From positions 1 through 25,007 of the IMG/VR virus record IMGVR_UViG_3300028393_000311: 25,007 nucleotides of DNA; one strand, given 5' to 3'. Origin of the DNA: a virus. The position numbers and the translations under genes were made by a program. The notes under the pieces were generated by a model. That model was not told the DNA's origin, did no database searches, and saw nothing but the letters and a program-made list of their open reading frames with translations. Shown here in pieces: positions 2,090 through 23,280 of the stretch; the first letter of the stretch is position 1; each line of letters starts with the position of its first letter.

Positions 2090-2773
2090 TTAGTTCTCAT
2101 AGTCTTTGATAGATTTCACTACATACTGTAAGTCATTTTGTATTTCCAATGTGGGAAACATTCCTCTAGGAGACTTACATGTATTTTCACCATTGGTTTG
2201 GGTTTCAAATACATACCTAATGTCACCTTCCTTGTTTCTTTTGGCTTTTCCAAACAATACAATAGAAAATAATCCTTCTAAAGTTAGTTTTTCATCAACC
2301 ATTTTACCAATTGTTTTTGCTTTGAACTTACGTTTACCTTCCATATCTGTTGCTTCTTCTGCATGAGTAAGGAAGAATATGAGAAGGTCCTCTCTCATAT
2401 CCTTAGGCATACGAGCAATTCTAGCTAGGTGTGCACCTATCTGTGTGAATTTCTCATACCCTTTCTCATTAGCTTTGTCAAAGAATTCAAAGGAACTCAT
2501 GTACTGAAAGTCATCTACAACTATTGTTTTAATCTCAGGACGTTTCTCACTAACATACTTAATACAAGCTTCTATATTCTCAGGACCAGCTTTGTCATAC
2601 ATATTACCTGAAGGATTTTCTTTACTCCAGATAGTGTACTTCTTTCTCCATCCTTTAAATGGCAAAGGCTTGTTAGCCACGTTAATAATAAATGTTTCTT
2701 TTGGATCTAATGCCTCAATGCTAGTAGATTTACCAGCACCAGACTCTGCAATAATTAATACTCCTTGTGCCAT
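2090..2773 (-). CDS. Sak4-like P-loop ATPase (recombination/replication)
   Basis: A 227-residue RecA-fold ATPase. Walker A is AESGAGKST at residues 9-17, almost at the N-terminus. Walker B is TIVVDDFQYM at 83-92, and FFLTHAEE at about 153-160 fits a RecA-type sensor position. Size, very early Walker A and the VVDDFQ motif match the Sak4 group of phage single-strand annealing and recombination ATPases. Members of that group are often encoded next to an SSB, as here. It would load on single-stranded phage DNA with the SSB during recombination-dependent replication. A simple AAA-type NTPase of other function is the alternative. Confidence 0.72.
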   Translation of the reverse strand: MAQGVLIIAESGAGKSTSIEALDPKETFIINVANKPLPFKGWRKKYTIWSKENPSGNMYDKAGPENIEACIKYVSEKRPEIKTIVVDDFQYMSSFEFFDKANEKGYEKFTQIGAHLARIARMPKDMREDLLIFFLTHAEEATDMEGKRKFKAKTIGKMVDEKLTLEGLFSIVLFGKAKRNKEGDIRYVFETQTNGENTCKSPRGMFPTLEIQNDLQYVVKSIKDYEN

Positions 2774-3395: not shown

Positions 3396-4451
3396 TTAAA
3401 TTGTTGGACCATTTGTATTTGTAAATCTATTAGCTGTTCTTCTTTGTGGAGGCTGACCTGTTGGATTGGCTGCTTGAGGTTCTCCTACTTCTATCATTCT
3501 TTGTTTAGCAAACTCTGCTTTAAGAAATATTAAGTTGGTATCATCTGCACTGTTTCTTGACTTAAGAATATGGCAAAAGATATCATCTGTTTTACATGGA
3601 TATTCTTTACGGCCATAACTTTCTATATCAGCTTTGTATGGTCTAGTTAAGACTAAGACCATGTCAGAACCTTGTTGTAATGCATCCCCACCAAATATAT
3701 CAGCACTAGTTGGATAGTTTCCTACAGTACCAGGCATCTTTCTAAGAGGATCATCAATACTTCTATTAAGTTGAGAGATCATAAAGACAACTATTGGTAG
3801 TTTATTCTTTACTTTCATTAACATCTCTACAGTGTTATAGAGAGTATTGATCTTCTCTTTTTCTGTTATGTCTTTCTTAATTAACCAACTATGATCTATA
3901 GTTACAATTAGTGGTTTACCACCTAGCCCTTCATAAGCTTTGTAAATAGCTTCTTCCATTGACTTAACTGTAATAGGTTCATTAATTTGGCATCTAAAGT
4001 TACCAAACTTATGGAATGTTCTAGTATCATTAAGATAGTTTTCCATCATCTTAATAGCAAAATCATCCACTTGTTTATGTGTACTCAACACTTGATTGTA
4101 GTCAAGACCCACTTGAGATGCAAAGTCTCTAGATGCTGTTTGCTTAGCACCCATCTCAAACTGAAATTCTAAAATATTGAAATCTTGTGTAGGATTAAGA
4201 AACTTAGCTTCTCTTAGTATTTGACTAACAAACATTGTTTTGCCTGAACCAGGTCTAGCACCTATAGTTAACATTGATCCCCACTCTAATCCTGCTACCC
4301 CTGAATTATTAATACCACTCCAGGGAAGACTTAAAGATTTAATTTTACCAGACTGCCTGTCTTTTATATATTGTAGACCTTCTTCTAGTATCTCAACATA
4401 CGTTTTAATACCAAAGGGTCTATCCTTTTGTGGAAGATTGAGAATATTCAT
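3396..4451 (-). CDS. DnaB-type replicative helicase
   Basis: A 351-residue RecA-fold helicase. Walker A is GARPGSGKT at residues 64-72, Walker B IVTIDH at 182-187, the H3-like motif FMISQLNR at 223-230, and KSRNS at 297-301 supplies the arginine-finger region. This is the C-terminal motor domain of DnaB. The N-terminal collar domain of full-length DnaB (about 450 residues) is absent or much reduced, as in several phage helicases. The last 30 residues are Pro/Gln/Arg/Asn-rich and probably disordered. The start overlaps the stop of the preceding small gene (TAATG), so the two are translationally coupled. Confidence 0.9.
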   Translation of the reverse strand: MNILNLPQKDRPFGIKTYVEILEEGLQYIKDRQSGKIKSLSLPWSGINNSGVAGLEWGSMLTIGARPGSGKTMFVSQILREAKFLNPTQDFNILEFQFEMGAKQTASRDFASQVGLDYNQVLSTHKQVDDFAIKMMENYLNDTRTFHKFGNFRCQINEPITVKSMEEAIYKAYEGLGGKPLIVTIDHSWLIKKDITEKEKINTLYNTVEMLMKVKNKLPIVVFMISQLNRSIDDPLRKMPGTVGNYPTSADIFGGDALQQGSDMVLVLTRPYKADIESYGRKEYPCKTDDIFCHILKSRNSADDTNLIFLKAEFAKQRMIEVGEPQAANPTGQPPQRRTANRFTNTNGPTI

Positions 4452-4636: not shown

Positions 4637-5210
4637 TATCTAATAGTTTTGGGTTATCAATTATCTGTTGACAATAATCAGCAAGTTTTGAACTCACTTC
4701 TTTTGTCTGTGGATTATGTTTTTTTATAAAATAGCTGCTTGTTGCCATATACATATAGTTTTTCTTTCTAAAGGCTTCATTGTAATAATCTGTTGCATCT
4801 AGTATAAGATCCCAGTCATATTCTGGATATGTCTTAAAAAACCATACAAACTTATCTTTTAACTCTTGTACAGATTGTCTAGCTAATTCACCTGAAGGCA
4901 ATCTTTTAGCTGGAAATGCTTCTCTATACTCTGTAATCTTTTGATTAAAATCTTCACCAAGTACAGCTGCTGTTACTTTTTTCTTTGTTTTAACCAAATA
5001 AGTCTCAAATTCATTAAGTATAACAGCTGCTTTGTTAGTTAAACCCCCTGATTCATCTATTAAGCCCTTATGTTGAGCAAGCATTCTTTCAGCATCTACG
5101 TTAATTAGTGCTTTAGAAGGTACTATCTTCTCTCTACAACAGTCTAAAAAATAAATTTGATTAGGACTCACATTCCACTTGATCAAGGTACTCCATAGTT
5201 GATGACTCAT
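4623..5210 (-). CDS. Replication-module protein, possible helicase loader
   Basis: A 195-residue protein with no motif I can identify. The predicted structure is mainly helical. The C-terminal half (about 105-185) includes LKDKFVWFFKTYPEYDWDL and a YYNEAF/YMYMATSSYFIKK region. It overlaps the DnaA-like gene by 50 nt and lies directly upstream of the helicase. That is the position often taken by phage helicase loaders or origin-binding partners. Function is inferred from position only. Confidence 0.6.
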   Translation of the reverse strand: MSHQLWSTLIKWNVSPNQIYFLDCCREKIVPSKALINVDAERMLAQHKGLIDESGGLTNKAAVILNEFETYLVKTKKKVTAAVLGEDFNQKITEYREAFPAKRLPSGELARQSVQELKDKFVWFFKTYPEYDWDLILDATDYYNEAFRKKNYMYMATSSYFIKKHNPQTKEVSSKLADYCQQIIDNPKLLDNDSI

Positions 5211-7536: not shown

Positions 7537-7949
7537 TGGCTTTAAAAAACTTTGGAATAAAATTAGCTGATAAGATTGCAAGTTTTGTAGGTTCTTGGGA
7601 ATTTATTATACTTCAATCTGTAGTTTTAATAGTATGGATGGTTATTAATTTAGATAATATGGTTTCGTTTGATCCATATCCTTTTATATTAATGAATTTA
7701 TTCTTATCAGCCCAGGCAGCTTATGCTACTCCTATGATTCTTATGAGTTCTAATAGACAAGCTGAAAAAGATAGAGAAGAACTATTGAAAGATCTTAAAG
7801 TTGATCAAAGTTCAAATGAATTATTACATTCTGTAATCGTTCTTCTTGTAAAACTAAAAGAAGATATTAAATTAGATAGACAATCAATTAGAGATCATAG
7901 TGAGATTCTTAAAGAATTAAAAGAACTTAAGAAAAATAAAAGCAAATGA
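7536..7949 (+). CDS. DUF1003 family membrane protein
   Basis: A 137-residue protein with the hallmark layout of DUF1003. It has GSWEFIILQSVVLIVWMVIN (19-38), FDPYPFILMNLFLSAQAAYA (45-64) and MILMSSNRQAEKDRE. Two membrane helices are followed by a cytoplasmic, partly coiled-coil tail ending in Lys-rich sequence. DUF1003 proteins are widespread bacterial inner-membrane proteins of unclear function. It sits between holin and endolysin genes with 1-nt and 4-nt overlaps, so it is co-translated with the lysis genes. It may be a second holin, an antiholin or a host-derived membrane protein recruited to lysis. Confidence 0.85.
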   Translation: MALKNFGIKLADKIASFVGSWEFIILQSVVLIVWMVINLDNMVSFDPYPFILMNLFLSAQAAYATPMILMSSNRQAEKDREELLKDLKVDQSSNELLHSVIVLLVKLKEDIKLDRQSIRDHSEILKELKELKKNKSK

Positions 7950-8542
7950 ACTTAGATAAACTAAAAGGACATATTCCAGAAGATGTGTTAAAGCAAATTC
8001 CAGAAGTAATGGAGAAGTTTGAGATTAATACATCTCAACGTCTAGCTCACTTTTTAGCTCAGTGTGCTCATGAATCTGGTGGGTTTAAACTTACACAAGA
8101 AAACCTTAACTATGGAGCTAAAGGCTTACGTGGTACATTTGGTAAATACTTTCCTACGGATGCATTAGCTGCTGCTTATGAAAGAAAACCTGAGAAAATA
8201 GCTAACAAAGTTTATGCTAATAGAATGGGTAATGGAGATGAAGCTAGTGGTGAAGGTTGGAAGTTTAGAGGTCGTGGTTTCATCCAATTAACTGGTAAAG
8301 ATAACTATAAAGCATTTGATGCTTTTGTACCTGAAGATCTAATTGCTACACCAGAACTAGTAGCTAGTAAATATCCATTATTATCTGCTGCATGGTTTTT
8401 TCATAAAAACTGCCTCAAGAAAGCTGATCTTGCTCCTACAGGTAATGCTGTAATTATTGTAAGTAAGTGTGTAAATGGTGGTACCAATGGTTTGAATGAA
8501 CGTATAGAAAACTTCAATCATTATTATAAATTGCTTAGTTAA
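7946..8542 (+). CDS. GH19-family endolysin (chitinase-like lysozyme)
   Basis: A 198-residue glycoside hydrolase of family 19, which in phages cleaves the peptidoglycan glycan strand. The catalytic Glu lies in CAHESGGF (E43). The second acidic residue is in the GNGDEASGEGWKFRGRGFIQLTG region (E99 or E103). RGRGFIQLTG and VNGGTNGLNERI are family signatures. It has no signal peptide, so export depends on the holin. The last 21 codons (8480-8542) are probably not the original ones: a homologous 63-bp 3' end lies after the downstream HNH gene. The stop overlaps the HNH ATG (TAATG). Confidence 0.92.
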   Translation: MNLDKLKGHIPEDVLKQIPEVMEKFEINTSQRLAHFLAQCAHESGGFKLTQENLNYGAKGLRGTFGKYFPTDALAAAYERKPEKIANKVYANRMGNGDEASGEGWKFRGRGFIQLTGKDNYKAFDAFVPEDLIATPELVASKYPLLSAAWFFHKNCLKKADLAPTGNAVIIVSKCVNGGTNGLNERIENFNHYYKLLS

Positions 8543-9138
8543 TGAATTATCAAAAAATATATGATGATTTAATGTTTGATAGATTGTTATTAAAAAAACA
8601 AAGGCATCTAGATAAAAAACAAGGAGTTTATTTTGAGGGTCATCATATAATTCCTAAATCTAAAGGGGGAACTGGTAATAGTACTAGAGCATTAAATCAC
8701 TCTAATATAGTTTTACTTACTGCTCGTGAACATTTTTTAGCTCATTGGTTACTTTGGAAAATATATAGAGATAGATCATCTGCTTTAGCATTTCATAAAA
8801 TGATGTCTACCAATAATTACCAAACTAGAAGTAAATCATCTAGAGGGTATGAAGAAGCAAGATTAGCTTTTAGTGAAACTAATAAAGGTAATCAGTATGG
8901 TAAAGGTGTTATAAAAGTTATATCTGAAGAACAGAAAAAAAATCATTCTAAGTTAATGAAAGGTAAATATACTGGAAAAGCTAATCCTTTTTATGGTAAA
9001 AAACATTCAGAAAAAGCTATTAATAAAATTAAACAAAGAATGCTAAATAGACCTAATGTTACTTGCAACCATTGTAATAAAGAAGTTGATCAATTAAATG
9101 CTATTAGGTGGCATTTTGATAACTGTAAAATGAGATAG
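8542..9138 (+). CDS. HNH homing endonuclease with NUMOD3 repeat
   Basis: A 198-residue free-standing homing endonuclease. The HNH core runs from GHHIIPKSKGG (33-43) through LNHSNIVLLTAREHFLAHWL. A NUMOD3-type DNA-binding motif, GKANPFYGKKHSEKAINKI, lies at about 150-168. A short zinc-finger-like C-terminus (CNHC ... HFDNC) ends the protein. Codon use is more AT-rich than in the endolysin gene, as expected for a recently acquired element. It is inserted exactly at the endolysin stop, and a relic of the endolysin 3' end follows it. The recognition site is therefore probably in endolysin alleles lacking this insert. Confidence 0.9.
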   Translation: MNYQKIYDDLMFDRLLLKKQRHLDKKQGVYFEGHHIIPKSKGGTGNSTRALNHSNIVLLTAREHFLAHWLLWKIYRDRSSALAFHKMMSTNNYQTRSKSSRGYEEARLAFSETNKGNQYGKGVIKVISEEQKKNHSKLMKGKYTGKANPFYGKKHSEKAINKIKQRMLNRPNVTCNHCNKEVDQLNAIRWHFDNCKMR

Positions 9139-9200
9139 GTACAATAGGATTAGAAGATCGTATTAAACATTTTGATGAATATTATAAACTACTTGCATAA
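9138..9200 (+). pseudogene. Displaced 3' end of the endolysin gene
   Basis: The sequence translates from GGT at 9138 as GTIGLEDRIKHFDEYYKLLA followed by TAA. It aligns without gaps to the endolysin terminus GTNGLNERIENFNHYYKLLS (8480-8542). By my hand count 12 of 20 residues and about 42 of 63 nucleotides agree. It has no start codon of its own. The TAA overlaps the ATG of the next gene (TAATG), the same junction that the endolysin now has with the HNH gene. This is best read as the original endolysin 3' end, left behind when the HNH element arrived with a replacement tail. Confidence 0.85.
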
Positions 9201-9511
9201 TGTTTAGCTATCCTAATTTGTGGGTGATGATGCTTGGTGTATTCACTGCTATGTTTTTTATTGTTGGTTGTGTTCATTATGTAAATAAATTATTTATAAA
9301 TGACACAAAAGATGTACTAGTTAGATTTATTTTATTAGTATTTGCTGCATTAGTTGGAGTATTTATAGTGGATAAGGTGATAGCATTTAAAATAAAGCTA
9401 TTATCAGATGAACAAAACAATCAATTATTTGAATTAATAAAAACATTAACCCTCATGATTTTTAGTTACTATTTTGGTACACAAAAACATGAAGACAAGA
9501 AAGAAAAATAA
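9200..9511 (+). CDS. Small membrane protein, holin-like
   Basis: A 103-residue protein with three likely membrane helices (about 7-28, 40-58, 78-92), ending in FSYYFGTQKHEDKKEK. The short, charged C-terminus after a YYFG turn is common in holin-like phage proteins. Before the homing endonuclease inserted, this gene directly followed the endolysin gene with a TAATG junction, which supports membership of the lysis cassette. It could be the true holin, an antiholin, or another membrane protein. Confidence 0.65.
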   Translation: MFSYPNLWVMMLGVFTAMFFIVGCVHYVNKLFINDTKDVLVRFILLVFAALVGVFIVDKVIAFKIKLLSDEQNNQLFELIKTLTLMIFSYYFGTQKHEDKKEK

Positions 9512-9722: not shown

Positions 9723-11225
9723 TTAGTATACTTCTCCACACATTCCTACTTTTCTAATAGTGGTACCATCAAATACTACGACCTGACCTTTAGATGCATA
9801 CTCTTCAATAACATTTGGACTAAATCCATCAAAAGAAGCTCCCTCTACACCAATGAAGAATGCTTTCTCAGAATACTTACTACAACAATCTTCTGCATCT
9901 GTGATTACTAATGCATTAGTATCATTACGTTCAATACTTCTAATAGCTTCATCAATGGTAGTACCACCTCCACAGTCAATCATAGAGATAGATATAAGAT
10001 CATTCTTAGACTTCTTCACTCTGTTATCAAACTTGTAGACATCATTAAGCATATCCATAGACTTAAGTTTAGCAGCAAATGCTTTACAAAAATCTATCTT
10101 ACTTATTCTTTGTCCTTCATCATTTAATACACCACAACTAGAGCTCATAGATCCTGATACATCTATATAGAGATCTATCTTACCAATTTTCTTGGTGTTC
10201 TTTACCTGTACATCTTCTGCAAAGATTTTTCTAAGCTTAGGATGCAACAGTTCATATTCTTCTAGACCAGCTATATTGTCACTGTTAAACAGATCTTCAT
10301 ACTCAGTCTTTTGATTAGAGCTGAAGTAGCTTACAGACTTGTCTAGTAGCTTCTTAATCTTCTCTTTAAGAGATCCCATAGAGAGATTAATTCTCTCAAG
10401 CTTAGCTGCAATTTGTCTAAGATAGTCAGGACTCAATTTAGCTGCTTCATTACCATCACCTGCCTGGTTAGCACTCTCAAACATCTGCTCTTGAACTTCT
10501 TCATCCATTACACTATCTATGTCTTTACACAACTCCTGGGCTTTCTGTAAAGCATCTTCTAGCATACTTTTACCTTGTCTGCTGTCCATCATCTTCTCCA
10601 TGGCTTTTTCTACACCATCATTATCAAAATCAGACTGACCATTCAATCCATTCTTAATATCTTCAGCTGCAGCAGGATCTGTAAATTCCATCATAGTCAT
10701 CCTTGTAATAAAATAACTAATGATATTACGTGCATAGATAGCAGATTTTAGATTGCTATTCTCAGACATGATCTTACCCACTGGATTATTAGCTCTCTCT
10801 AAGAACTTGAACTTAGTGTGGTTCTTCTCGTCTCTGTCCTCAAACTTAAGATCTTCAATCTTGTTGTAGTACATCTTAAAGACATCCTTTACCATATGAT
10901 TAGGAAACTTTCTGTAGTTTTCACTAAGTTTAGTTTGAAAACCTGTCATACTAGGTTGTTTATCTGGAGCAATCTTCTTGAAGTCAGTGCTCTTGATAAA
11001 CTTCTCATAGTTTTCTTTTACAGATTTACTATTCTGCATATGAGTATCCATGATATTCTCAAGCCTACGTTCATCAATATAATGCATGTAGGGTTTAATA
11101 AGATCTGGTTTTTTGTAGAAGTTAATTTTACCAAATAAGCCCTGGTCATCTTTATAATGGGATTTGATTTCTCCCTTCTTTACTTTTTCTAGAATGGTAT
11201 ATACATTCTTATATTCTTTTGCCAT
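9723..11225 (-). CDS. VWA-domain protein, partner of MoxR ATPase
   Basis: A 500-residue protein. The C-terminal von Willebrand A domain (about 345-500) has a complete MIDAS: DVSGS at 355-359, the conserved Thr in GGGTTID (420-425), and the acidic ITDAED at 441-446. The N-terminal 340 residues are mostly helical and charged, with a possible coiled-coil region at 205-300, as in ViaA- or CobT-type VWA proteins. It lies directly downstream of a MoxR-type AAA+ ATPase gene, the usual genomic pairing in which the VWA protein brings a metal-dependent partner to the ATPase. The target of a phage-encoded pair is unknown. Confidence 0.85.
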   Translation of the reverse strand: MAKEYKNVYTILEKVKKGEIKSHYKDDQGLFGKINFYKKPDLIKPYMHYIDERRLENIMDTHMQNSKSVKENYEKFIKSTDFKKIAPDKQPSMTGFQTKLSENYRKFPNHMVKDVFKMYYNKIEDLKFEDRDEKNHTKFKFLERANNPVGKIMSENSNLKSAIYARNIISYFITRMTMMEFTDPAAAEDIKNGLNGQSDFDNDGVEKAMEKMMDSRQGKSMLEDALQKAQELCKDIDSVMDEEVQEQMFESANQAGDGNEAAKLSPDYLRQIAAKLERINLSMGSLKEKIKKLLDKSVSYFSSNQKTEYEDLFNSDNIAGLEEYELLHPKLRKIFAEDVQVKNTKKIGKIDLYIDVSGSMSSSCGVLNDEGQRISKIDFCKAFAAKLKSMDMLNDVYKFDNRVKKSKNDLISISMIDCGGGTTIDEAIRSIERNDTNALVITDAEDCCSKYSEKAFFIGVEGASFDGFSPNVIEEYASKGQVVVFDGTTIRKVGMCGEVY

Positions 11226-11278: not shown

Positions 11279-12934
11279 TTAAAATGGTAAACTAGAAGAA
11301 GCTACTTCTTCTTTGAACTCATCTGATACATTATAACTAGCACGAGCTGGGTGATTAGATAGGATCACTGAGATAGTACCTTCCATATCTTCCACTTGAC
11401 TCTCATCCATAATACCTCTACTAGTATAAGCATTGATCAAGCTCTCAATCTCTGCTACAGCTAGTTCTAGACCTTCCCCTGTACTTTGAGAATGCAACAT
11501 CTCAATCTTACTCATCACAGCCTTAACTTCTGGTGATACTAGTTTACTATCTAGTTCAGAAGCTGCTGCTTGAGAGATCATGATTTGTGCAGTCTTTACA
11601 AGAGCTTTGTCTATACTGTTATCCCAAATATAACTAACAGCTTTAGCAAGCCTTGGTACAAAAGTCAAGGTTCTGTCACTAGAACTCTTGTAGCCCACTT
11701 CTAAATACTTGTCTAGCTTACTGCTAGGGATCTCTATAGTATCCATTTCTGCTTGATTTGGAATACCAATGTTAAATTTCTCTTTATAATTTCTAGCACC
11801 CTTAGCATAATACTTACTCATGTCACCTGCTGATACACGGTTTACAGTCATCTTCAACATAAATCTGTCCCAGAATGGAGAGTCTTTCTCATCTTTAGGT
11901 ATTTCATTACAAGTGGCAATAAATAACTTCCATTTACATGGGATTTTACTCTTACCATTGAATAAGAACTTCTCGTTCATTACACCCAACATAGCATTTC
12001 TAATGGCACTACTGGCTTTGTCTACCTCGTTGATAATAACAATATCAGCATCTGCTACAGGAGCATTTAGTTCATATGTATTCTGTGTAAACAACTTACC
12101 TAAGTCAGGCATACCCTTGATCTCTGATGCTTTAGTACCTTCATCAGTCTCTAGAATATACATCTTGTTTTGGAAATCTTCTGCAGTCATTTTACCATCC
12201 TTGTTCAACCATGCCTTAGCATATTCTATAATAGTTTTTGTCTTTGCTACACCTGGCTCACCTACTAGTAATAGAGGTAGTCCTGTAGCTTCTGCTAATG
12301 CAAGCATCTTAAATACTTCTTCCTTATTGATTAAGGAAGTTTCAATTGTTCTCACTTCTTGAGTTGTCTTTTTAGTAATTGACTTTACTTTTGCCATTTT
12401 GTTTGTGGGTTTTGTTTTTTGTGTTTTAAATGATTCTACTAAATCAAATGATCTTTCTGATATCATTCCATTATAGGTTTTGTAAACAGGATTAGTTTGT
12501 ATACAATTTCCTATTGGAGGAGTAACTTTATAACCTTTCTCATTAGAATATATACCTTTTTCTATAATAATTACTTCTCTACCCACTTCTTCAGGAGCAC
12601 AACCTATACCTGATTGAGTAACTTTTACTTTATCTCCAATTTCAAATTTATAATTCATATTTGCAGGTTGATTAGGAACAGGCACCCATCTCTGGATGCC
12701 TGCACTGTTAGCTTTTACTTCCCAATATCTACCATCATTACCTGGTAGTATAGTACCTACTGGATATGCTGTAGCACTATCTGTAGGACTGGGTCTATTA
12801 GAGGCTGGCAAAGATGTCTGCTGCTTCATTTGATGCCAAGATTGGCTCCCTGTCAACCACAGATACTGCTGGTTGTTGTGTAGTACCACTTGTCCTGTCA
12901 GTTGTGGATCCTTTGGTTTGCCCTGTGGTCTCAT
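11279..12934 (-). CDS. MoxR-type AAA+ ATPase with N-terminal extension
   Basis: The open frame encodes 551 residues. The MoxR ATPase occupies about 195-551: Walker A GEPGVAKT (225-232), Walker B IVIINEVDK (298-306), sensor 1 FIATCNE (338-344) and arginine finger DRF (356-358). Such ATPases act as remodelling chaperones with a VWA partner, here the next gene. The first 180 residues hold two small motifs (GNDGRYWEVK with RWVPV; then a KOW/SH3-like FEIGDKVKV region). The internal ATG at 12397 begins a standard 372-residue MoxR and carries the A/C-rich leader also found before two replication genes. So the long form may be a fusion, or two products may be made. The distal ATG overlaps the upstream gene by 137 nt. 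Confidence 0.85.
   Translation of the reverse strand: MRPQGKPKDPQLTGQVVLHNNQQYLWLTGSQSWHQMKQQTSLPASNRPSPTDSATAYPVGTILPGNDGRYWEVKANSAGIQRWVPVPNQPANMNYKFEIGDKVKVTQSGIGCAPEEVGREVIIIEKGIYSNEKGYKVTPPIGNCIQTNPVYKTYNGMISERSFDLVESFKTQKTKPTNKMAKVKSITKKTTQEVRTIETSLINKEEVFKMLALAEATGLPLLLVGEPGVAKTKTIIEYAKAWLNKDGKMTAEDFQNKMYILETDEGTKASEIKGMPDLGKLFTQNTYELNAPVADADIVIINEVDKASSAIRNAMLGVMNEKFLFNGKSKIPCKWKLFIATCNEIPKDEKDSPFWDRFMLKMTVNRVSAGDMSKYYAKGARNYKEKFNIGIPNQAEMDTIEIPSSKLDKYLEVGYKSSSDRTLTFVPRLAKAVSYIWDNSIDKALVKTAQIMISQAAASELDSKLVSPEVKAVMSKIEMLHSQSTGEGLELAVAEIESLINAYTSRGIMDESQVEDMEGTISVILSNHPARASYNVSDEFKEEVASSSLPF
12409..12423 (-). promoter_or_regulatory. A/C-rich leader before the internal MoxR start
   Basis: Minus-strand CACAAAAAACAAAAC, identical over 15 nt to the leader at 3370-3384. 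It stands 11 nt before the ATG at 12397, yet it lies inside the long MoxR reading frame, where it is read as part of KTQKTKPTNK. Its presence argues that 12397 is, or recently was, a real start. Confidence 0.5.
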
Positions 12935-21906: not shown

Positions 21907-22824
21907 TTATGACTCGTTAAGTCTAGACTGTGAGAAACCCAGCTCTTTAGCTTCTTCAGGGTGTTTTTTCCATAAATATCCATATGCTTGTTTTTGTTTG
22001 CCATTAAAACAATTTTTAATAGCTGTTCTACTAGATAACTTTAAATCTTTTATAACTGTTTCTAAATTATCATAAATTTTTATTAAAATACCATCTAAAG
22101 AATATTGAGCTATTTGGTTTTTATAATAAGAATCACAAGTATTGTCATAAGACCATATATAACCTCCAGCTGTTTTTCTTTGTTTATTTGTTACTTTAAA
22201 AATAGAAGCAGCATCTATATTTGTAATATTACTAGCTTCAAAAACAGATTCATAAGTATGTATACAATTACATTGTTTATCATATTGATATACAAAATGT
22301 TTACCTTTATTAGGAACATTTACTGTAATTTTTTGTAAATAGTTTTCTGTATACCATTTCCAAATATAATTACCACATGTAGTAGATACTCCATTTAAAT
22401 TAGCATATATACTTTTATCTTTAACTTTTAAAGTATATGTAATTTCTAATACATTATTCCAAATTTGTATAAAATTACCTTCTAAATCATATTGAATAAT
22501 TTTTTTAGGATCTCCACTTTTATGTTCACCACCAGAAGATATATTAGCTAATAAACCTGTATTATGACATATTCTACCATATTTTTTAATTAGATCTATT
22601 TCAGCTTGCATACATTCATCTTGGTTTTCATAAGTTTTTATAATATCTACTATAATTTGTTTTTTATTTTTAGACCAAATTTTATTCCATATAGGATTTC
22701 TTTTACCAGGTCCAAATTCATATGCTCTAGAATATCTACCTGGAATATCTGAACCAATACCAACATAAAATACTTCATTAGTATCTGGTCTTGTGTGAGT
22801 ATAAAGATAAAATTGTTTGTTCAT
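21907..22824 (-). CDS. GIY-YIG homing endonuclease with three NUMOD1-like repeats
   Basis: The start at 22824 (MNKQFYLYTHTRPDTNEVFY, 305 residues) is preferred, because the longer frame needs a TTG start and adds a sequence without family character. The GIY-YIG nuclease core has YLYTHTRPD ... VFYVGIGSDI, Arg in GRYSRAYEFG, and the Glu/Asn region QAEIDLIKKYG ... NISSGGEH. Then come three NUMOD1-type repeats of about 50 residues: IIQYDLEGNFIQIWNN ... GNYIWKW, VYQYDKQCNCIHTYES ... GGYIWSY and IAQYSLDGILIKIYDN ... YGYLWKK. These DNA-binding repeats identify a free-standing homing endonuclease. It is AT-rich in comparison with the flanking genes. Confidence 0.92.
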   Translation of the reverse strand: MNKQFYLYTHTRPDTNEVFYVGIGSDIPGRYSRAYEFGPGKRNPIWNKIWSKNKKQIIVDIIKTYENQDECMQAEIDLIKKYGRICHNTGLLANISSGGEHKSGDPKKIIQYDLEGNFIQIWNNVLEITYTLKVKDKSIYANLNGVSTTCGNYIWKWYTENYLQKITVNVPNKGKHFVYQYDKQCNCIHTYESVFEASNITNIDAASIFKVTNKQRKTAGGYIWSYDNTCDSYYKNQIAQYSLDGILIKIYDNLETVIKDLKLSSRTAIKNCFNGKQKQAYGYLWKKHPEEAKELGFSQSRLNES

Positions 22825-22881
22825 AATGTCATATAGTTTACTGTACAATACAATATATGACAAATACTACAAACTACCAAA

Positions 22882-23280
22882 TTATTCTCTAAGTTTTAAT
22901 CCCATTTCTATAGCTTCATCTGCTGATAAATTATCATGGATATATGTATGACAATTACGACATACTGCTTTCCATGTACCAACTTTTAGGTAATGTTTAT
23001 CTCTATCTTTACCAGAATAAAGGTGATGAACATCTGTACTAGTTCTTGTACATCCTACTAGTTTAGCTTCACAGCTAGGTTTAACTACTAAAAAAGCTTC
23101 TCTAAGTCTACCATAAGTATCCATCTCCACCCGTCTCTTTGCAGAGACAGGGGAAATAGACTTGGGTTTCTCAATATTGTACCAACATGATTGGCAGTAT
23201 TTTTCTTTACCATGTGACTTCCAGATGTGCTTCAGTTCTTCACATCCTGCACATAGTTTAAGTTTAGCTTGTATACTCAT
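22882..23280 (-). CDS. HNH endonuclease with N-terminal zinc finger
   Basis: A 132-residue protein. CAGC (10-13) and CQSC (29-32) form a probable zinc finger. The HNH core follows: C70 and C77, VHHLYSGKDRDKHY (84-97), then WKAVCRNCHTYIHD (103-116) with CxxCH and a final His. Lacking NUMOD repeats, it resembles resident phage HNH proteins involved in recombination or DNA processing rather than homing endonucleases. Its start overlaps the stop of the upstream gene by 4 nt. Confidence 0.85.
   Translation of the reverse strand: MSIQAKLKLCAGCEELKHIWKSHGKEKYCQSCWYNIEKPKSISPVSAKRRVEMDTYGRLREAFLVVKPSCEAKLVGCTRTSTDVHHLYSGKDRDKHYLKVGTWKAVCRNCHTYIHDNLSADEAIEMGLKLRE

Follow-up and report, generated by a model that had tools for sequence, protein, structure and literature searches.

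A phage HNH homing endonuclease gene that very probably brings its own replacement for the 3′ end of an endolysin gene

Here, we describe a homing endonuclease gene at the end of an endolysin gene in a 25,007-base virus record from IMG/VR, the whole of which we refer to as the window. The gene for a GH19 endolysin occupies positions 7946 to 8542 of the forward strand, and its stop codon (8540 to 8542) shares the bases TAATG with the start, at 8542, of an HNH homing endonuclease gene on the same strand (8542 to 9138). Directly behind that gene, positions 9138 to 9200 of the forward strand encode GTIGLEDRIKHFDEYYKLLA plus TAA, a second endolysin tail of 20 codons and a stop, which in turn shares TAATG with a forward-strand open reading frame for a hydrophobic protein of 103 amino acids (9200 to 9511). 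The endonuclease gene lies between a complete endolysin gene and a displaced endolysin 3′ fragment, the layout of a 3′-end-replacing element. The last 20 codons and the stop of the working gene (8480 to 8542, forward strand), which we call the patch, and the displaced fragment, which we call the relic, are colinear, 63 nt each, and end in TAA overlapping an ATG; they agree at 42 of 63 bases and 12 of 20 residues. An earlier interpretation made from the letters alone (the sequence-only reading) had given these same counts and had placed the endonuclease start at the endolysin stop, correctly to the base. The score of the relic against the endolysin tail (66) was reached by 0 of 5,000 Markov resamples of the region, the maximum among which was 45.

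The reading frame of the relic differs from those of both the endonuclease gene and the endolysin gene, and it holds no in-frame ATG, GTG, or TTG. Because it is out of frame with both neighbors and has no usual start codon, the relic is probably untranslated. With the limits of the insert placed at the GGT codons of the two tails, it spans 8480 to 9137 (658 nt); the left edge of the patch is uncertain by some tens of bases and possibly lies up to about 25 nt further left. These limits are a small correction to the sequence-only reading. The insertion broke the TAATG overlap that would couple translation of the gene at 9200 to that of the endolysin, and the start of this gene now lies about 60 nt 3′ of the endonuclease stop.

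The endolysin is chimeric, with a foreign 3′ end, and its open reading frame is complete (198 amino acids), as had been proposed when the enzyme was said to have been kept intact. It matches Pfam Glyco_hydro_19 and the PHROG 181 endolysins. Solved structures of phage GH19 endolysins resemble its AlphaFold model (pLDDT 95.5), the closest PDB entry being 9eoi, a GH19 endolysin (TM score 0.86). Since the duplicated residues, 179 to 198, contain the last helix of the predicted model (183 to 197), an insertion without a patch would be expected to truncate the fold.

Residues 1 to 197 of the endonuclease match PHROG 655, “homing endonuclease” (E value 9e-47), and E32, H34, H35, N55, H64, and H68 are invariant among 20 HNH homologues; the HNH assignment rests on this match and on these residues, NUMOD3 being the sole Pfam match. 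Family match and catalytic residues are those of a free-standing phage HNH homing endonuclease (PHROG 655/mob type). The C terminus combines a zinc-finger-like CxxC...HFDNC motif with NUMOD3. A Foldseek search of the structure model against the PDB gave no match, and GTDB genomes held only four distant relatives, none of them informative. Over the N-terminal ~165 residues, the protein is 57 to 70% identical to those of loci L081, L084, L088, L089, and L171. The C-terminal DNA-binding part is swapped among homologues, with CxxC...HFDNC in the window, L085, and L174 and NUMOD1/HTH-like sequence in others.

In IMG/VR, none of the 80 nearest relatives of the endolysin carries the HNH gene. All 80 have a single tail, of the type GTIGLxDRIKHFxEYYxLL, which is like the relic and unlike the patch. 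The closest of them, L001, agrees with the relic at 50 of 63 bases and with the patch at 44 of 63. In L002, L005, L008, and L015, the homologue of the gene at 9200 starts exactly in the endolysin stop, again as TAATG. Because the tail overlaps this homologue in four relatives that are free of the HNH gene, the empty site is seen directly. L002, whose homologue of the 9200 gene is 75% identical, reads GGTGGTACAATAGG... through TAATGTTTAG..., and the relic in the window begins at the same GGTACAATAGG and enters the same TAATGTTTAG. These comparisons bear out two proposals of the sequence-only reading, that the native tail was stranded downstream and that relatives without the insert would have one tail, closest to 9138 to 9200 and followed directly by the next gene.

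The patch has other affinities. When 156 other distinct tails were ranked by DNA similarity to it, the first four were those of L330, L346, L250, and L162, each of which has a related HNH gene directly behind its endolysin; HNH-free relatives have the other tail. Were the 14 HNH-bearing tails placed at random, four of four would be expected with a probability of 4e-5, a value not corrected for relatedness. The eight tails nearest to the relic are all HNH-free, as are the nearest endolysin cores. The displaced fragment is therefore like the empty relatives and the inserted 3′ end is foreign, and the comparison with tails of HNH-bearing phages that had been suggested as a check came out in favor of a homing element that brought a foreign endolysin tail with it. 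The best match to the patch, L330 (GTNGLNERIEYFNQFYKLLS versus GTNGLNERIENFNHYYKLLS; 85% amino acid and 75% nucleotide identity), would by this measure be a relative of the donor and not the donor itself, no exact donor having been found among these tails.

Across 158 distinct endolysin loci, tail type follows the endonuclease gene. The consensus HF.EY tail occurs in 2 of 16 HNH-bearing loci against 127 of 142 HNH-free loci, in a count that is not corrected for relatedness, in which some HNH-bearing endolysins are remote, and in which several HNH-bearing loci were included because the HNH gene itself served as the query, so that their frequency is not a prevalence. When the core is at least 80% identical to that of an HNH-free relative, tail identity is 0.68 for HNH-bearing loci (n = 8) and 0.93 for HNH-free controls (n = 129; p = 9e-7). 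Tree-independent pairs point the same way (5.7 agree, 0 disagree) with a median p of 0.03, which is only just significant. Individual loci illustrate the pattern: L250 and its relative L252 are 99% identical in the core and 65% in the tail, whereas L250 and L162 share 90% of tail residues with cores that are 46% identical. An identical block, TATAAATTACTATCTTAAAGTCCAATC, made up of the last endolysin codons, the stop, and the spacer before the HNH gene, is found in L250, L272, and L330 at the ends of different endolysins, and in none of the HNH-free loci. Furthermore, in scans of 2.9 million viral contigs for tail motifs, made without reference to HNH, ERIKEFKHFY occurred in three contigs and GTNGLNERIE in one, and in all four an HNH gene lies directly behind. 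Shared block and motifs are thus restricted to HNH-bearing phages, and the 3′ codons move together with the endonuclease gene. Because tails, block, and motifs track the HNH gene, the mobile unit is “endolysin 3′ codons plus HNH.”

The association has exceptions. L174 and L272 have a consensus-type tail despite an adjoining HNH gene, and L332, L334, and L356 have an altered tail without one; in the latter three, the endonuclease gene may have been lost after an earlier homing event. On the tree of endolysin cores, presence of the HNH gene requires 12 changes, at least 9 of them forced by supported branches. The gene is thus present or absent at one site among close relatives, and its scatter over the tree suggests that it was gained or lost repeatedly. 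L250 and L272 have closely related endolysin cores, and both have the HNH gene and the same spacer, with tails that differ (GTIGLSERIKEFKHFYKLLS versus GILGINDRIKHFNEYYKLLS), a difference that shows repeated exchange at this spot. Such tail exchange explains mosaic endolysin 3′ ends.

The replaced tracts differ in length. L272 and L270 are 83 to 100% identical before the last 30 nt and 77% identical within them, and between L250 and L252 identity falls from 90% to 67% from the NGG codons on. Patch lengths among loci range from about 5 to 20 codons. Break repair that copies a donor would be expected to give tracts of varying length next to an insert that stays the same.

Remnants of displaced tails were sought at other loci. 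The HNH frame of L330 ends in ...GYVIKYLKEYYDLLK and a stop, matching the end of a native-type tail, IKHFKEYYNLLK and a stop (score 49; 0 of 5,000 resamples), so that the C terminus of the endonuclease runs into ...IKYLKEYYDLLK and a stop, a native-type tail end. The DNA past this point is nearly identical to the 3′ flank of the endolysin gene in the empty locus L332 (core 92%). Since most of its upstream tail resembles that of L332, unlike the situation in the window, the part imported into L330 probably comprises only the last codons. In L346 (equivalent to L170/L088), at 4270 to 4420, the HNH gene ends in ...IKHYNEYYNS and a stop and is followed by RLKEFKTFWKLLG and a stop (score 45; 0 of 5,000). 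These short stretches may, tentatively, be two successive displaced endolysin ends, and stacked ends would possibly fit successive invasions, as in the clusters of the yeast WHO elements discussed below. Most other HNH-bearing loci have no recognizable relic, which may mean that a stranded tail arises only now and then, as a side product, and does not belong to the mechanism. When about 100 HNH loci were scanned for repetition of the 3′ end of the gene upstream, only two apart from the window scored clearly above their shuffles, L346/L170 (45) and L200 (143). In L200, a PHROG 655 HNH gene lies behind a 609-amino-acid thymidylate synthase-type open reading frame, and about 75 nt of the 3′ end of that frame recur, nearly unchanged, 3′ of the HNH gene (3772 to 3846 and 4774 to 4849). 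Because this copy begins with ATG, it may be a small gene; alternatively, the 3′ end of a different target gene may have been displaced here. No duplicated upstream tail was found at five insertion sites of the same HNH family in named T4-like phages.

The alternative that fares best is ordinary intronless homing into the 3′ flank of the endolysin gene with coconversion, as in T-even phages, in which case the stranded tail would be the product of one accidental, illegitimate right-hand join. Free-standing phage endonucleases are known to coconvert adjoining target genes, which become resistant, and L250, L272, L162, and L176 have altered 3′ codons and no full relic. However, the endonuclease gene in the window lies within the target open reading frame and not beside it, and L330 has, and L346 may have, a native tail remnant at the right end. 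On balance, we consider this account possible but doubtful.

Two colinear tails on either side of the HNH gene would likewise result if the endolysin tail had been duplicated in tandem around that gene and the working copy upstream had then diverged. Here, however, the dead copy is the conserved one and the working copy the deviant one, and on this ground we rejected a tandem duplication; the sequence-only reading had set aside a simple one because its copies would be near identical. The deviant tails, moreover, are common to HNH-bearing phages with cores as dissimilar as those of L250 and L162, and the block described above is common to different endolysins; a duplication is thus very improbable. 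As a virus record, the window derives from assembled sequence, and two related phages might have been misassembled at the endolysin gene. Several unrelated contigs, however, share this architecture and show tail swaps of the same kind, and the relic runs unbroken into the correct neighboring gene and its TAATG overlap, which leaves this explanation with an even slighter chance. That the HNH gene is flanked by two exon-like pieces might suggest a group I intron or an intein whose splicing to the downstream tail restores the endolysin, an idea we regard as next to impossible, given that the upstream frame is already complete, that the HNH frame is out of frame with it, that the HNH gene takes up all but about 60 nt of the insert, and that Rfam finds no group I intron in the window at gathering thresholds nor in 8200 to 9500 at relaxed ones.

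Our preferred reading, a mobile patch plus endonuclease gene, has counterparts outside phages. In the WHO elements of Torulaspora and Lachancea, which target FBA1, the gene receives with each integration a new 3′ end that is resistant, and the former one is displaced downstream (PMC7282813). As at the endolysin locus, a free-standing endonuclease gene lies behind the 3′ end of its target and brings its own resistant 3′ end, and the target stays whole without intron or intein (PMC7282813). The WHO endonucleases, in contrast, are intein/HO derived with zinc fingers, are encoded in the yeast nucleus, and have been tested for cleavage, whereas here an HNH enzyme is associated with a phage endolysin and a patch of about 15 to 60 nt, and the system is known from sequence. 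The endonuclease in the window matches phage HNH proteins and not WHO/HO, and it was therefore not assigned to the WHO family. The WHO study (Coughlan 2020, PMC7282813) does not mention phages. Mitochondrial mORFs with C-terminal duplication, known from atp6 of Allomyces macrogynus and from atp6, atp9, cox2, and nad3 of Glomus, are also alike in that a foreign C terminus and an endonuclease open reading frame are inserted, the native C terminus lies downstream, and the inserted copy is diverged while the native one resembles that of relatives (PMC3630166). They differ in having LAGLIDADG or GIY-YIG enzymes, in their location in fungal mitochondria, and in inserted C termini that can be much longer. 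By this comparison, the mechanism would be of the WHO/mORF kind and the enzyme family would not; the element appears to work like a WHO element without being one.

Within phages, the free-standing HNH (mob) and GIY-YIG (seg) endonucleases of T-even phages, such as mobE, segF, and segG, offer close parallels (PMC2988022). There, too, the genes are free standing, mobE has a UAAUG overlap, neighboring sequence is coconverted, and an HNH domain is joined to a C-terminal DNA-binding part. In contrast to the locus described here, these genes sit between genes or split one (nrdA of phage Aeh1), and a displaced 3′ end is not described in the passages considered (PMC2988022). An unorthodox HNH insertion without intron or intein is known from a phage methylase (PMC11855218); it differs in that the insertion is translated as an in-frame, read-through part of the host protein, the HNH lies concealed in another frame, and the 3′ end is not replaced. 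We found no description of this form of 3′-end replacement in phages in open-access PMC, and an earlier report may exist. The sequence-only reading had presented the locus as an insert plus repair patch that needs no intron or intein; the lack of an Rfam match agrees with this, while the strategy is not new to biology, as yeast WHO elements and mORFs do likewise.

We think it highly probable that positions 8480 to 9137 are a mobile unit, an endolysin 3′ patch followed by an HNH homing endonuclease gene, that was acquired by horizontal exchange and left the native tail downstream, with the patched allele presumably immune. The comparisons above show that the gene was inserted, that other 3′ codons took the place of the native ones, that the native end was displaced, and that the endonuclease gene has a scattered distribution; the following steps would account for these findings. 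The source would be a phage in which a different GH19 endolysin is followed by a related HNH gene. The HNH enzyme would nick or cut the empty endolysin 3′ end, and repair would copy the donor. To the left, the recipient's endolysin 3′ end would be overwritten with donor codons over a variable length, and the HNH gene would follow. The right-hand join would fall inside or just before the native tail, which for that reason would be kept as a dead downstream copy. The chimeric endolysin would remain full length, with an intron or intein unnecessary, and its altered last codons would presumably lie outside the target of the enzyme, making the occupied allele immune; the change of target site that the sequence-only reading suggested is thus plausible. 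Recombination could possibly be served by the phage's own Sak4-like annealing protein (2090 to 2773, reverse strand).

A broader proposal, to which we give even chances, is that phages host dedicated 3′-end-replacing homing elements that are convergent with WHO. Such elements would specialize on the last helix of GH19 endolysins and drive repeated end replacement across unrelated phages, and the stranded tail would be the right-hand recombination arm when homing next takes place.

Elsewhere in the window, the reverse strand carries three further nuclease genes (13 to 408, 21907 to 22863, and 22882 to 23280), among which are two small HNH proteins (PHROG 1985 and 2323) and a homing endonuclease match (PHROG 314). 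Also on the reverse strand, a 500-amino-acid protein with a weak PHROG 1314 match (9723 to 11225) adjoins a MoxR-type AAA ATPase (bpMoxR; 11279 to 12934), an unusual pair for a phage.

On the reading that we favor, a lysis gene can harbor a selfish gene and stay intact, with no need for splicing of RNA or protein. This extends to phages a mechanism known from yeast and from fungal mitochondria, and the endolysin loci compared here form a natural collection of alleles, presumably either cut-sensitive or resistant, with which homing can be tested.
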